Shown in pieces: positions 3,247-29,300 of a stretch of DNA of 64,000 bases. How positions within the stretch are numbered: position 1 is the stretch's first letter; each line of letters begins with the position of its first letter. Made by a program: the position numbers and the translations under genes. The notes beneath the pieces were generated by a model. The model was not told the DNA's origin and searched no databases. It saw nothing but the letters and a program-made list of their open reading frames with translations. This stretch comes from Rahnella victoriana (GTDB taxonomy: Bacteria > Pseudomonadota > Gammaproteobacteria > Enterobacterales > Enterobacteriaceae), in assembly GCF_004330295.1 (NCBI RefSeq), contig NZ_SJOJ01000001.1, positions 186,001 through 250,000 of the forward strand, written 5' to 3'.

Positions 3247-3387
3247 AAATACCGCAAAATGTAGGGAAAGTCGTCCGGATATTAGCCATAAGGCTTAAAA
3301 TGTTTACTGCACTTAAAAGAGATGAGATTGCGCCGGATTGTGAGAAAGGATTTTATCGCTGCGGGGATATTTTGGGGTTCAGATGCG

Positions 3388-3411
3388 AAAAAAGCGCCAA
3401 AAGGCGCTTTT
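3388..3411 (-). terminator. Terminator of the tRNA-Lys operon
   Basis: Stem AAGCGCC/GGCGCTT with loop AAAA, followed on the minus strand by a run of six T. It lies downstream (leftward) of the last RtT-like element and is the first convincing terminator after the three tRNA genes. Confidence 0.75.
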
Positions 3412-3447
3412 CTCTGAATTCTGCAATTTAGATGGCTTCACTTAAAG

Positions 3448-3561
3448 TGGTGGGCCGTGCTGGATTGACTCGGTTTCACCTCGCCCTGCGGGCAACGCTT
3501 GCGCGTTGTCGTCTCGCTTCGCTCGGCTCGAACCCCTGGTTCTCATCCTGCACTGCTTCAC
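3448..3561 (-). ncRNA. RtT-like element, copy 1 (distal)
   Basis: Spacer RNA element read on the minus strand. It starts GTGAAGCAGTGCAGGATGAG, contains a GC-rich hairpin block (CAACGC GCAA GCGTTG) and ends with AATCCAGCACGGCCCACCA, identical to the last 19 nt of the upstream tRNA-Lys including CCA. The E. coli tyrT operon has a comparable design: 178-bp repeats carrying the terminal 19 bp of tRNA-Tyr, processed into rtT RNA. Assignment rests on that architecture; no covariance search was possible. Confidence 0.6.
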
Positions 3562-3581
3562 TACATTTTCCACTTTAAAAG

Positions 3582-3657
3582 TGGTGGGCCGTGCTGGATT
3601 CGAACCAGCGACCAATTGATTAAAAGTCAACTGCTCTACCAACTGAGCTAACGGCCC
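3582..3657 (-). tRNA. tRNA-Lys (anticodon TTT), copy 3
   Basis: A 76-nt cloverleaf on the minus strand, GGGCCGTTAGCTCAGTTGG to the genome-encoded CCA. Anticodon TTT lies in the loop CTTTTAA, the T-loop is GGTTCGAATCC and the acceptor pairs GGGCCGT/ACGGCCC. Identical to the two other copies. Most distal from the presumed promoter. Confidence 0.98.
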
Positions 3658-3715
3658 ATCTAAATGCTGGGTACTTGTGGCTTCACTAATTATTCAGGGC
3701 GCATCACTTTAAAAG

Positions 3716-3829
3716 TGGTGGGCCGTGCTGGATTGACTCGGTTTCACCTCGCCCTGCGGGCAACGCTTGCGCGTTGTCGTCTCGCTTCGCTCGGCTCGAA
3801 CCCCTGGTTCTCATCCTGCACTGCTTCAC
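3716..3829 (-). ncRNA. RtT-like element, copy 2
   Basis: Same element as at 3448-3561, shifted by 268 bp and almost identical. It lies between the second and third tRNA-Lys genes, so it must be removed when the polycistronic transcript is processed. It again ends in the 19-nt tRNA 3' copy with CCA, followed by ACTTTTAAAG as after the real tRNA. Confidence 0.6.
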
Positions 3830-3849
3830 TTCATTTTCCACTTTAAAAG

Positions 3850-3925
3850 TGGTGGGCCGTGCTGGATTCGAACCAGCGACCAATTGATTAAAAGTCAACT
3901 GCTCTACCAACTGAGCTAACGGCCC
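3850..3925 (-). tRNA. tRNA-Lys (anticodon TTT), copy 2
   Basis: Identical 76-nt tRNA-Lys with encoded CCA, the middle gene of the tandem array. Anticodon TTT reads AAA and AAG codons. Confidence 0.98.
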
Positions 3926-3983
3926 ATCTAAATGCTGGGTACTTGTGGCTTCACTAATTATTCAGGGCGCATCACTTTAAAAG

Positions 3984-4097
3984 TGGTGAGCCGTGCTGGA
4001 TTGACTCGGTTTCACCTCGCTCTGCGGGCAACGCTTGCGCGTTGTCGTCTCGCTTCGCTCGGCTCGAACCCCTGGTTCTCATCCTGCACTGCTTCAC
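3984..4097 (-). ncRNA. RtT-like element, copy 1 from the promoter
   Basis: Promoter-proximal copy of the spacer element. It carries small differences: its tRNA-end copy reads GGCTCACCA instead of GGCCCACCA, and the GC block reads AGAGCG rather than AGGGCG. These suggest relaxed selection on this copy or drift after duplication. Confidence 0.58.
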
Positions 4098-4117
4098 TTC
4101 ATTTTCCACTTTAAAAG

Positions 4118-4193
4118 TGGTGGGCCGTGCTGGATTCGAACCAGCGACCAATTGATTAAAAGTCAACTGCTCTACCAACTGAGCTAACGGCCC
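4118..4193 (-). tRNA. tRNA-Lys (anticodon TTT), copy 1
   Basis: First tRNA of the operon on the minus strand, 76 nt with encoded CCA and identical to the other two. The region to its right carries the promoter candidate at 4268-4295. Confidence 0.98.
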
Positions 4194-4267
4194 TTCTAAA
4201 CCTACTGCATATTGCCTAAATCTCTGACAGCGTTAGCCGTTTGGAGTTGTCTGGGCAACGGCGGCAT

Positions 4268-7174: not shown

Positions 7175-8410
7175 TTATTGAGGTTTGAAATCTATCGGAG
7201 CATTTTTAAACACTTCATAGACTGCTTCAGAAGGCGGTTTAGGGAACTTCGCCTGTCGGGCGGCGGCAAGCGCAGCCTGACAAAGTGCAGGATCCCCACC
7301 TTCAGCCGACACACTGATTAATGAGCCGTCAGGGTTCATTTTAATGCGCAACGAACAGGTTTTACCTGCATAAGATGACGCGTCATAGAATCTGCTCTCG
7401 ATGGCAGCCTGAATCTGGCTACCATAGTTCGCAATATCAGCACCGGATGCGCCCGCCTTTTTCTGAGTCCCCTTCCCTGACGGAGCAGAAGCGCCTCCAC
7501 CTGTTGAGCCTTTCGGCGCATTTTTGGAGTCGGCCAGGCCATCAAATAAGTTATTCGCATCAGCCGCTTCCTTGGCAGCCGCAGCGGCGGCAGCCTTTTT
7601 ATCTGCTGCCGCTTTCTTCGCGGCAGCAGCAGCTTCGGCTTTCTTCTCAGCAGCAGCGGCAGCTTTCGCATCAGCGGCGGCTTTGGCATCGGCATCAGCC
7701 TGGGCCTTCGCGTCAGCGGCGGCCTGAGCCTTCGCGTCAGCAGCAGCCTGCTTTTTGGCTTCTGCTGCCGCTTCTTTCTTAGCGTCAGCTTCAGCTTGTT
7801 TCTTCGCTGCGGCCGCAGCGGCAGCCGCTTCAGCCTCGGCTTGTTTTTTAGCATCCGCAGCGGCTTTTTTCTGTGCATCAGCCTGCGCTTTTGCAGCTTC
7901 TTTTGCCGCATCCGCTTTGGCCTGGGCCGCTGCTTTTGCCGCTTCCGCCTTGGCCTGCGCCGCGGCAGCTTCGGCCTGTTTCTGCTGTTCTTTCGCCTGC
8001 TCGGCGGCCTGTTCAGCTTGTTTCTGCTGCTGGGCCTGTTCCTGAGCCTGCTGCTTCGCATCTTCCTGCGCTTGCAGACGCTCTTTCTCAAGTTCTTTCA
8101 GGCGCTGCTGTTCTGCGGCCTGTTTCTGTTGCAGCTCTTCAGCCTGTTGCTCTGATTTTTTCTGACGCGCTGCGGCAGCACGTTGGGAATCAGCCTGTTG
8201 CTGTTGCTGACGGTTGTACTGATCGACCACCGCACTGGGATCAACCATTACGGCGGAGATATCGCTACCGCCACCGCCGCCACTCATGCTGGTATCTTCG
8301 TCCAGCGATCCCCAAATCAACAGGGCTATAATGATGATATGCAGAACGACCGAAACAATAACGGCGCGTTTGAGCTTATCGTTTTGTTCAGTTGCAGTTG
8401 CCTTTACCAA
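7175..8410 (-). CDS. tolA: Tol-Pal system protein TolA
   Basis: Inner-membrane anchored energy transducer. Domain I is a single membrane helix ~14-35 that includes the SVVLH motif needed for TolQR contact. Domain II (~65-300) is a very long helix of Ala, Lys, Gln and Glu with repeated AAADAKA-type units. Domain III (~320-411) is the compact globular domain that binds TolB, with IQAAIESRFYDASSYAGKTC. The low-complexity domain explains the many overlapping open frames on both strands here. 411 residues versus 421 in E. coli. Confidence 0.96.
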   Translation of the reverse strand: MVKATATEQNDKLKRAVIVSVVLHIIIIALLIWGSLDEDTSMSGGGGGSDISAVMVDPSAVVDQYNRQQQQQADSQRAAAARQKKSEQQAEELQQKQAAEQQRLKELEKERLQAQEDAKQQAQEQAQQQKQAEQAAEQAKEQQKQAEAAAAQAKAEAAKAAAQAKADAAKEAAKAQADAQKKAAADAKKQAEAEAAAAAAAAKKQAEADAKKEAAAEAKKQAAADAKAQAAADAKAQADADAKAAADAKAAAAAEKKAEAAAAAKKAAADKKAAAAAAAKEAADANNLFDGLADSKNAPKGSTGGGASAPSGKGTQKKAGASGADIANYGSQIQAAIESRFYDASSYAGKTCSLRIKMNPDGSLISVSAEGGDPALCQAALAAARQAKFPKPPSEAVYEVFKNAPIDFKPQ

Positions 8411-26360: not shown

Positions 26361-29300
26361 ATGGAAGAAAATCGGAACAGCTCGCGTTCGTTTAAAAAAA
26401 CATTATTATCGAGTGCTATATTAAGTCTTTTATTGCCTTCATTTTCAGCATTGGCAACCGCGACATACGCTGGCGGTGATTATGAATTTCCAAGTATTAA
26501 TTCTTCCTCGACACCTGGTAATGACGGCATTGCCTATATCATCACCGATGCAGGAACAAAAGTCACCGTGGCCGGAGAAATGGCCCTTCCGGGTATTCCT
26601 GCTCCTATTCCTCTTAAATCCGTCGTTTCAACCACCGGCAACGAAGCCTATGCCTTCAATATTATTAATCAAGGTAAGCTGATACTTAACTATGCTGACG
26701 TGAGCACAACAAACTCCAGTAAGACATTTAACATAAAAAGTGGCGGCTCCGCCGAAATTTATAACGCAGATATTAGTTCAGGGAAAAATGGCAGCAGCGT
26801 TATTTATGTTTCAGATAACAATTCCACCTTGCTCGGTGATGATATTCGAATAAGTAGTGACGCGACTCAGGCGGTAGGGATTGATATTCGCGCAGGTGCT
26901 CGTGCGAATATCAGCAATGTAAATATTGAATTATTAGTTGACGGAAAAAGAGCAGTCTCTGTTGAAGAAGCATCTGCTTATATTAACGGACTCACTGTTA
27001 ATCAGCAATCTTCGGGATCTCCCGAAAGTCAAAGTGCTATTTATGCCTTAGGAGGAAAAAATACCGTCATTGCTGACGTCACCATCATTGATGGCAACGT
27101 TCAATTAACAGGCACCAACAGTTCCATCGTCGATGCAAATGCCTACAGTAAGGTCAGGTTAGACGGCGGCATTTATGAGGCAAATGGCAATAATACCAGC
27201 GGATTTAACATTGCGGCGTCCAGCGCAACGTTAACAGCAAGTAACCTGCAACTGACGACACACGGCGCAAATTCCGAAGCAATAAATGCACGTGGAGATA
27301 CCGGGTTAGACCATGTCACCGTCACGACTACAGGTGACAGTTCCTATGCGTTATACGTCGATTCTGGCGAATTATCAGATACACCCAATGCGCAACCGGT
27401 GACCTTGACCGGCAAAGATATGCACATCATCACAACAGGCGTCAGTTCAGCCGCGGTGGTCGCTGCCCGTACAGGGATTATGGATCTTGATGGTGCTGAG
27501 ATTACAACCAGCGGAAGAAACAGTAATCTGCTGGTTGCGATGAATGATTCTACCCTTGAAGCCAACGCGGTTAAGGGGAATTCAACCGGCGAAGGTGCGT
27601 CCGCTATCCGTTCCTATGCCAACAGCCAGATGACCATCAGCAACAGCGAGTTATCGACCACCGGTGCATTAGCAAATGGCATTTATGCGCAGGGTTTTAA
27701 TGCAGACCATCAGGCCGTCGTGACGCTGGATAAAAGCGTTGTCAGCAGTGCCACCAGTGAGGGAATACTCGCCGAAGGGGCAAATACTCAGATAAATGTG
27801 AATAACGGATCAACCGTGCAAAGCGGAAACGGCGTGCTGCTGAAAGCCAGGAGTTATACCAGTACCAGCACCGGTGTTACCACACAAAGCCAGATCAACT
27901 TGTCGGCCAGTGACTCTCACATGGAAGGCGAAATCATTGCCGATACCGGCAGTGTTGTGGATGTGTATCTTAACAGCGGTTCGGAATGGGAAGGGGTGAC
28001 GGGCAGTACCCACAGCGTCAACATCGACGACTCCAGTCAGTGGACTGTAACGGGTGATTCCACGATTTCGCAGATGAACTCCGGCGGTACTACCCTCTTC
28101 ACTCACAGCGGTAATGATTACTCTGAGCTCACCGTGAACGGCGATATGACCGGCGACGGCGTTTATCGCATCAATACTTATCTGGATGACAGTAACTCGC
28201 CGACAGACCAAATCCATGTCACTGGCGACGTGACGGGAAAGAATACCCTGTATGTCACCAGCACCGGCGGGAGCGGTAACTATACGCTGGGCAACGGTAT
28301 CGAAGTGATCACCGTAGCAGGCACCAATATTCAGGGAACGGATGCCTTCGCGCTGGGTAATTCTGTTTCAGCTAACGCCTTCAACTATGGTCTGCGTAAA
28401 GGTGATATCACCACCGGTGAGGGCGAAAACTGGTACCTGAGCACCTGCACGAATTATGATTGCACCACACCGATCCCGGATCCTGATCCTATCCCTGACC
28501 CGACACCGGATGACAATCCCGACGATAATCCTGACGATGTCCCTGACGATGTTCCGGACGATATCCCTGACGATGTTCCGGATGACAACCCGGATGTGAA
28601 CCCAACCCCGACGCCAACCGATGATAATCTGCCATGGCGCGAGGAAGTGCCGGGGTATATCGCCGCACCGGTGCTGAACATGCAGTACGGCTTCGATGCC
28701 ATCGGCACTTATCACCAGCGTACCGGCGGCGATGTGCTGCATAAAGACGGCGCATGGGGCCGGATTGTCGGCACGCACACCGAAAATGACGCAGGCCGTT
28801 TCAGCTATGACACCGATACCTGGTTCGCGCAGTTGGGTATGGATCTGATGTGGGATAAAGACGCAGAAAACACCGAACGCAGCGCCGGTATTCTCATGAC
28901 ACTTGGACGCCAGAATACTGACGCGCAAGACAGTCTTCGCAACAACAACCCGCTGTATTCCGTACAAACCGGCAGTATAGACAGTGACATCTACAGCTTC
29001 GGCGGTTACTACACGCTGAAAGCGCAGGATGGCGGCTACATTGACGCGGTGGGCATGGGCAGCTGGTATAAAAACAGCTATGACAGCACGCATGATGCGG
29101 ATCAGGACGGATATGGCATTGCCTTATCGGTCGAAGCGGGCAAGCCTTTTACCTTGCATGAAAATCTGAAAATTGAACCGCAGGCGCAGGTGATCTATCA
29201 GTATCTGAATCTGGACGATTTCAGCGATGGCATCAGCCATGTTTCCGGCGTCTCCACCAGCAATGCGCAGGCGCGCGGCGGTGTGCGTTTATTCCTGGAT

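Follow-up and report, generated by a model that had tools for sequence, protein, structure and literature searches.

The window analysed here is a 64-kb stretch of DNA (64,000 nt) from Rahnella victoriana that carries, on its minus strand, three tRNA-Lys(UUU) genes that are identical across 76 nt and recur with a period of exactly 268 bp (ARAGORN and sequence comparison), as the initial annotation had reported. In transcription order, these genes are located at 4118–4193 (copy 1; 78.3 bits), 3850–3925 (copy 2), and 3582–3657 (copy 3), each called by ARAGORN and by the Rfam tRNA model. All three are followed by a match to the Rfam model of the RtT RNA (RF00391), on the minus strand as well: unit 1 at 3984–4103 (66.5 bits), unit 2 at 3716–3835 (68.0 bits), and unit 3 at 3448–3567 (69.2 bits), giving a same-strand tRNA upstream of RtT in three out of three cases. 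These scores exceed the model cut-off of 45, with E-values of 3.3e-12 to 1.5e-11 for the 12 kb searched. The RtT RNA of the E. coli tyrT operon reportedly goes back to Bosl and Kersten in 1991, and a comparison with it had already been drawn from the sequence alone; since the core matches the RtT model, the resemblance is one of homology, and the convergent origin that had been proposed alongside it is ruled out.

At the end of every unit, the final 19 nt of the tRNA are repeated, and this copy stops 134 nt past each tRNA-Lys gene. Two out of three copies are exact (3716–3734 and 3448–3466), and one has a single mismatch to the tRNA (3984–4002, where GGCTCACCA replaces GGCCCACCA). The spacers had been said to end in this tail and to continue each time into the same flank; a 19-nt copy does follow each gene, but one copy is imperfect, two spacers run on for a further 58 nt between the tail and the next tRNA-Lys, and the flank reads CTTTTAAAGTG in two units and CTTTAAGTG in the last. 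This last unit lies past the final tRNA-Lys and leads into a terminator-like hairpin with a T-run (3386–3412, minus strand, read from the sequence by eye). Searching the 19-mer on both strands of the whole 64-kb window, with up to 2 mismatches, gave no matches beyond the three tRNAs and the three copies. Array units 1 and 2 are the same except at 2 of their 268 positions, in keeping with the recent amplification that had been suggested, and unit 3 resembles both (one to three single-base changes) until just beyond the tail, where the flank differs. The window array is a real tandem array of tRNA-Lys plus RtT, a new member of the RtT family that has been amplified together with its tRNA. Adjoining it on the minus strand is a CpoB_ybgF thermometer RNA (RF02782; 5156–5294; score 135.8 bits, cut-off 51). 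Elsewhere in the window, at 7617–8075 and 28506–28594, are tandem repeats of short period that may be coding.

Between tRNA and tail copy, each unit has two further parts, whose coordinates were counted by hand on the sequence. The 5′ arm (3804–3821 in unit 2, minus strand; 4072–4089 in unit 1 and 3536–3553 in unit 3) is antisense to the T-arm of the tRNA (GUGCAGGAUGAGAACCAG). The hairpin cassette, or core, lies between GGGUUCGA and AAUCC (3735–3795 in unit 2, minus strand; 4003–4063 in unit 1 and 3467–3527 in unit 3). It consists of a string of short hairpins between GGTTCGA and AATCC, 61 nt long in the window and roughly 60–80 nt elsewhere (by eye), and its position corresponds to the T-loop, GGTTCGA^A, of a partial tRNA copy.

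The genome of the window holds seven RF00391 matches: the three of the array, one downstream of a tRNA-Tyr gene, one downstream of a Val-Val-Lys cluster, and two after tRNA-Arg that score below the cut-off. At all of them, the tail is a copy of the neighbouring tRNA's own. The same slot between cpoB and nadA was compared in one E. coli genome, KLY (L260), which has five tRNA-Lys genes, each followed by a unit with its own tail (98, 98, 99, 100, and 156 nt). The earlier statement that this slot holds Lys and Val tRNAs in E. coli, without such an array, is wrong in substance, because all five tRNA-Lys genes of KLY carry an own-tail unit. In the RefSeq table of this lys operon (L260:1509–2607), the label 'RtT sRNA' is attached to the last unit only, and the four short-form units are unannotated. 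Neither is RtT peculiar to this tRNA or this genome: RF00391 matches were found with other tRNAs and in many genomes of the family, the order, and the class. Matches with an E-value of 0.001 or better occur in 14/14 genomes of the genus (13 over the curated cut-off), 84/149 of the family (82 over), 85/394 of the order (65 over), 66/369 of the gammaproteobacteria (24 over), and 39/299 of a phylum sample (25 over), where samples of more than 40 genomes were searched with stricter filters that lose weak matches. Among 14 control genomes, E. coli is the only one with a match. In the class survey, the RtT-model matches (E-value 0.001 or better) span 50 families (counted by hand). In the phylum sample, 24 of the 39 matching genomes belong to one family outside the class (also counted by hand), with exact own-tail copies at both loci inspected. 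The Lys unit was also sought on mobile genetic elements, giving matches in 1 of 50,697 phage and 2 of 72,556 plasmid records, all of them weak or partial, and carriage by phages or plasmids was rejected.

Across 259 loci (overlapping ones included), we collected 316 own-tail units, defined by last 18 nt with at most 3 mismatches to the preceding tRNA. The upstream tRNA is Tyr, Lys, Pro, Ser, Arg, or Gln, and in single cases Glu and Val. RtT is treated here as an element found after the tRNAs of eight amino acids (two of them once each), rather than a curiosity of one tRNA-Tyr operon. At three loci (L207, L251, and L259), RtT lies beside apparent degenerate tRNA remnants with no intact tRNA (by eye).

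How strictly the tail follows its neighbour was also judged from 108 class-survey matches, a subset picked from the match table and unselected for the tail beyond the scoring by the RtT model itself. A same-strand tRNA lies upstream of 88 of these; the remaining 20 have no recognised tRNA upstream and include contig ends, degenerate tRNAs, and interrupted tRNAs. Over the last 18 nt, the 88 tails differ from the upstream tRNA at no position in 63 cases, at two or fewer in 72, and at three or more in 16. In 41 of these unselected matches, the tRNA is a minority one, whose tail is not the commonest of its isoacceptor: the RtT tail agrees with its own tRNA in 32 of the 41, with the common variant in none, and with neither in 9. 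Among tail-selected units, the own tRNA is copied exactly in 68/75 minority cases and the common variant in 0/75, and the acceptor-strand part of the tail tracks its own tRNA in 53/58. For a profile along the element, we reduced the 316 units to 224 distinct ones: the most distal of each array was taken if its tRNA has a CCA end, its tail no more than 2 mismatches, and its flank sufficient length, and duplicates were then removed. Identity is 0.95–1.0 over 18 nt, 0.61 at position −19, and 0.01–0.02 at −20 to −23, and the own tail beats the tails of all other amino acids in 224/224 units, a result that is partly guaranteed by the selection. The core-likeness, arm, selected minority-tail, and fold sets were all drawn from these 224 tail-selected units, so their tail figures are biased upward.

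This agreement allows more than one explanation. RtT could be a functional structured RNA, in which the trailer is cut at the second CCA to give a regulatory rtT RNA (acting in the stringent response, as a sponge, or in tRNA maturation), and selection keeps tail and arm. In the tail-selected units, tail identity stops at CCA and the flank has diverged in many of them, which suggests selection; the acceptor-strand part of the tail, which by eye is partnerless inside RtT, tracks the tRNA in the 53/58 minority cases given above. The arm, too, co-varies with tRNA identity along with the tail. Read by eye, the 5′ portion of RtT runs antisense to its own tRNA's T-arm, with GGAUGAGAACC set against the GGUUCGAAUCC complement and further bases, specific to the tRNA, prolonging the match. 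In an anchored test of 5 variable positions, restricted to the 77 units with a recognisable arm motif, the own tail pairs at 3.86 positions and tails belonging to other amino acids at 2.35; the highest value in 2000 shuffles was 2.91. A free alignment, applied to 179 units (one per genome and tRNA type), gives a weaker contrast, with 8.40 of 10 for the own tail against 7.32 for foreign tails, and in 133/179 units the own tail outranks most foreign ones. From the literature, Northern signals of two RtT RNAs mentioned for A. pleuropneumoniae (in a portion of PMC4986893) and a helix that frames a tandem-GA motif and is supported by covariation (in portions of PMC7657543 and PMC8250186) count in the same direction. 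Pointing the other way are a terminator-like hairpin ahead of RtT in 48/179 units (by a simple rule) and the modest stability of the window RtT folded alone (z −1.69, with 10/200 shuffles at least as stable). An RttR row in a table of an E. coli sRNA screen, showing 97% and dashes under columns that are unlabelled in the excerpt (PMC4606813), was counted against function as well. On balance, we regard a selected regulatory RNA as an unlikely account of the element.

A second functional possibility arises from the folds. In the predicted fold of the window unit, the T-arm of the tRNA pairs with the 5′ arm of RtT, and RtT could act as a strand-swap switch in which the arm captures the T-arm while the RtT tail takes over the 5′ acceptor strand, with a trapped, inactive precursor tuning tRNA yield. 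Such a swap appears in the minimum-energy fold of the window tRNA plus RtT (z −4.2), and it would explain why the acceptor strand has to match. Among the 136 units left by length and N filters, the joint fold is favoured by a mean of 9.05 kcal/mol (5.0 when the middles are shuffled), and pairing of the middle with 9 or more of the 12 T3/acceptor bases is seen in 68/136 units, against 49/272. The acceptor swap itself, however, is unspecific, occurring in 129/136 natural units and in 368/408 controls with shuffled middles and kept tails. Folding moreover ignores modification, tertiary contacts, and kinetics, and the tRNA is expected to fold fast. Since shuffled controls show the swap too, we rejected the fold as proof of a switch, and we think it improbable that RtT would work in this way.

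The core also lies inside longer tRNA copies and, in places, outside tRNAs. At eight loci, the core interrupts a near-complete tRNA copy in its T-loop, with some copies degenerate: tRNA-Gln at L233 (3 copies), tRNA-Ser at L239, L247, L188, and L223, and tRNA-Tyr at L050, L052, and L062. The tRNA-Ser copy at L188 contains two cores, one in the D-loop after GGCTGA and one in the T-loop after GGTTCGA. What is said of families, interrupted tRNA copies, inserts in the D-loop, and short forms relies throughout on counts or readings made by eye. In the genus, RF00391 also finds a tail-less core inside a dispersed repeat. This intergenic repeat (L091:1050–1480 and related sequences) is present in 14/14 genus genomes, with at least 17 matches in the genome of the window, and occurs with and without the core. 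Among the matches listed, alignments of the repeat often split exactly around the core. Ten aligned coreless copies continue from CTCGA into A in nine cases and into C in one, and three copies with the same flanks hold a 63-nt core, the counterpart of the window cassette, exactly at this CTCGA point, so the cassette is present or absent at one exact position outside any tRNA. In eleven more filled copies, the flanks have diverged further. Instead of insertion, the occurrence of repeats with and without the core might stem from loss or from the amplification of two subfamilies, and simple insertion leaves the antisense arm unexplained. None of the 259 loci has a tail copy that lacks a cassette, which gives no direct view of insertion into an existing tail, and coreless tail hairpins were dismissed as insertion targets. 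Nor was a mobilising enzyme for the cassette identified: the Y1 transposase (PF01797) has 0 matches in the genome of the window (G000), where it is thus unsupported as the current mobiliser, and the same search was positive in 5/14 control genomes.

The opposite end of the tRNA is copied as well. In the surroundings of 434 distinct tRNA genes, the first 18 nt of the tRNA recur 25 times on the upstream side, in 18 genome/tRNA pairs, and never on the downstream side; for tail copies the counts are 371 downstream and 61 upstream, the latter probably stemming from arrays of like tRNAs. Antisense copies number 0 upstream for heads and 4 downstream for tails. The loci were all picked for their RtT matches, so the head counts are not genome-wide rates, and the 25 include near-complete interrupted copies as well as places counted twice beside two tRNAs; by eye, distinct heads amount to 13 truncated ones in 10 loci and 9 near-complete ones. 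Heads at L258, L218, L210, and L188 have an RtT-like cassette in the D-loop, and those at L191, L227, and L230 an insert near the anticodon loop (both by eye). Together with L141, L158, and L176, these heads with hairpin inserts form a mirror image of RtT. The L141 head comes in three tandem copies at 127-bp spacing. Because heads lack a CCA end, a function of the CCA end would not explain them, which also speaks against the regulatory RNA discussed above.

RtT units can also be present or absent as a whole. At the Tyr locus, 6 of 14 genus genomes are filled, 7 are empty, with the flank directly after the tRNA, and 1 has a truncated remnant. Compared with empty relatives, the unit in the genome of the window is bounded by a 27-bp direct repeat (18 nt of tail and 9 of flank). 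Filled and empty genomes interleave in the flank tree (for G001 and G009, the upstream half only), a pattern that, judged from these sequences, would best be explained by loss through recombination between tails. Missing from this locus in half of the related species, RtT is dispensable there, again at odds with a selected RNA. For 102 units, the nearest core belongs to the same amino acid in another genome in 83 cases, to another amino acid in another genome in 13, and to a different amino acid within the unit's own genome in 6; most copies therefore look inherited rather than newly moved. In one genome, the cores of a Gln and a Val element are 95% identical over the 75 nt compared, and their arms and tails differ. 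In a purely neutral reading, RtT would be the remnant of a partial tandem duplication of a tRNA followed by unequal crossing-over, with junk hairpins as core and a tail kept identical by recent homogenisation. The near identity of the window units, the gradual drop in identity past CCA in the 224 distal units (0.86 falling to about 0.55), of the kind that exchange tracts would be expected to leave, and the RtT copy number reported to differ between two S. Paratyphi A strains (in a portion of PMC2658671) all agree with it. Against it count the spread of matches over 50 families, the exact point at which the cassette is either present or missing, and the covariation of the arm, features that a pure remnant would not be expected to retain in diverged genomes; core likeness by locus partly suggests, in addition, that core and arm are conserved over long times without homogenisation. 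We accordingly give this reading little credence.

The explanation we lean towards, and consider modestly probable, is a composite one, in which RtT is a tolerated cassette within a partial tRNA copy, its copy number changes by recombination, its tail is kept by exchange or selection, and rtT RNA is a by-product. The 3′ end of RtT repeats the last 18–19 nt of the preceding tRNA, from the end of the T-loop to CCA, and the arm complementary to the T-arm closes the structure. The cassette presumably inserts, or once inserted, at YGA^A, with tRNA loops as common targets, and it may survive next to an intact copy of the tRNA. Recombination between the repeated tails and between whole units would alter the copy number, leading to arrays such as the 268-bp one and to precise losses elsewhere. 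The tail may stay equal to the tRNA by exchange (concerted evolution), by selection, or by both, and rtT RNA would be a processed by-product that some hosts possibly use. The idea of a mobile tRNA-tail element, put forward in the initial annotation, finds partial support in the filled and empty sites and the interrupted tRNA copies. More tentatively, since here we remain on the doubtful side, RtT may be one half of a widespread, undescribed class of multi-hairpin inserts of about 60–80 nt that enter copies of tRNA genes at YGA^A sites, whether of the D-loop or of the T-loop, that leave tails downstream (RtT) and mirror-image heads upstream, and that are moved by a mechanism which also hits non-tRNA hairpins.

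RtT is already known but barely understood, and the comparison prompted by the array weighs more than the array alone. It yields a testable rule (the tail is that of the neighbouring tRNA) and a separable cassette whose sites occur filled or empty, offering a way into how bacterial tRNA genes get interrupted, amplified, and repaired. In the literature, we recognised no paper on tails matched to several tRNAs, on T-loop cassettes, or on head copies, and as far as this search reaches, a hairpin cassette in tRNA loops with tail and head forms is new.

Several known systems resemble parts of this picture. The Tyr-locus unit of the window's genome resembles tRNA-targeting integrative elements in that the tRNA 3′ end is directly repeated on either side of it; unlike such elements, the array unit, measuring 134 nt between the end of the tRNA and that of the tail, is too short to encode an integrase. 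BIME/REP and MITE-like cassettes are likewise short, hairpin-rich, and partly dispersed, with filled and empty sites. A passage of PMC2965389 describes a BIME cluster upstream of gatY, rbfA, and cvpA as resembling rtT, and a table in PMC12306157 lists rttR as REP-containing. The RtT cassette differs in sitting in a tRNA loop or at a TCGA^A site, and in residing in a genome without Y1 transposase. Another counterpart of the window array is that of E. coli KLY, which we take to be lysT-lysQ: it occupies the same cpoB-nadA slot and has an own-tail unit after each tRNA-Lys, but 4 of its 5 units are shorter, without the inner hairpin (by eye) and unannotated, and Val tRNAs are interspersed. Finally, the window units share with the RtT of the E. 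coli tyrT operon (RF00391) the core, the place after a tRNA, the 3′ end copied from the tail, and the tandem repetition, and they differ from it in following tRNA-Lys, in being repeated with this tRNA as a 268-bp unit, and in having a Lys-specific tail and arm.
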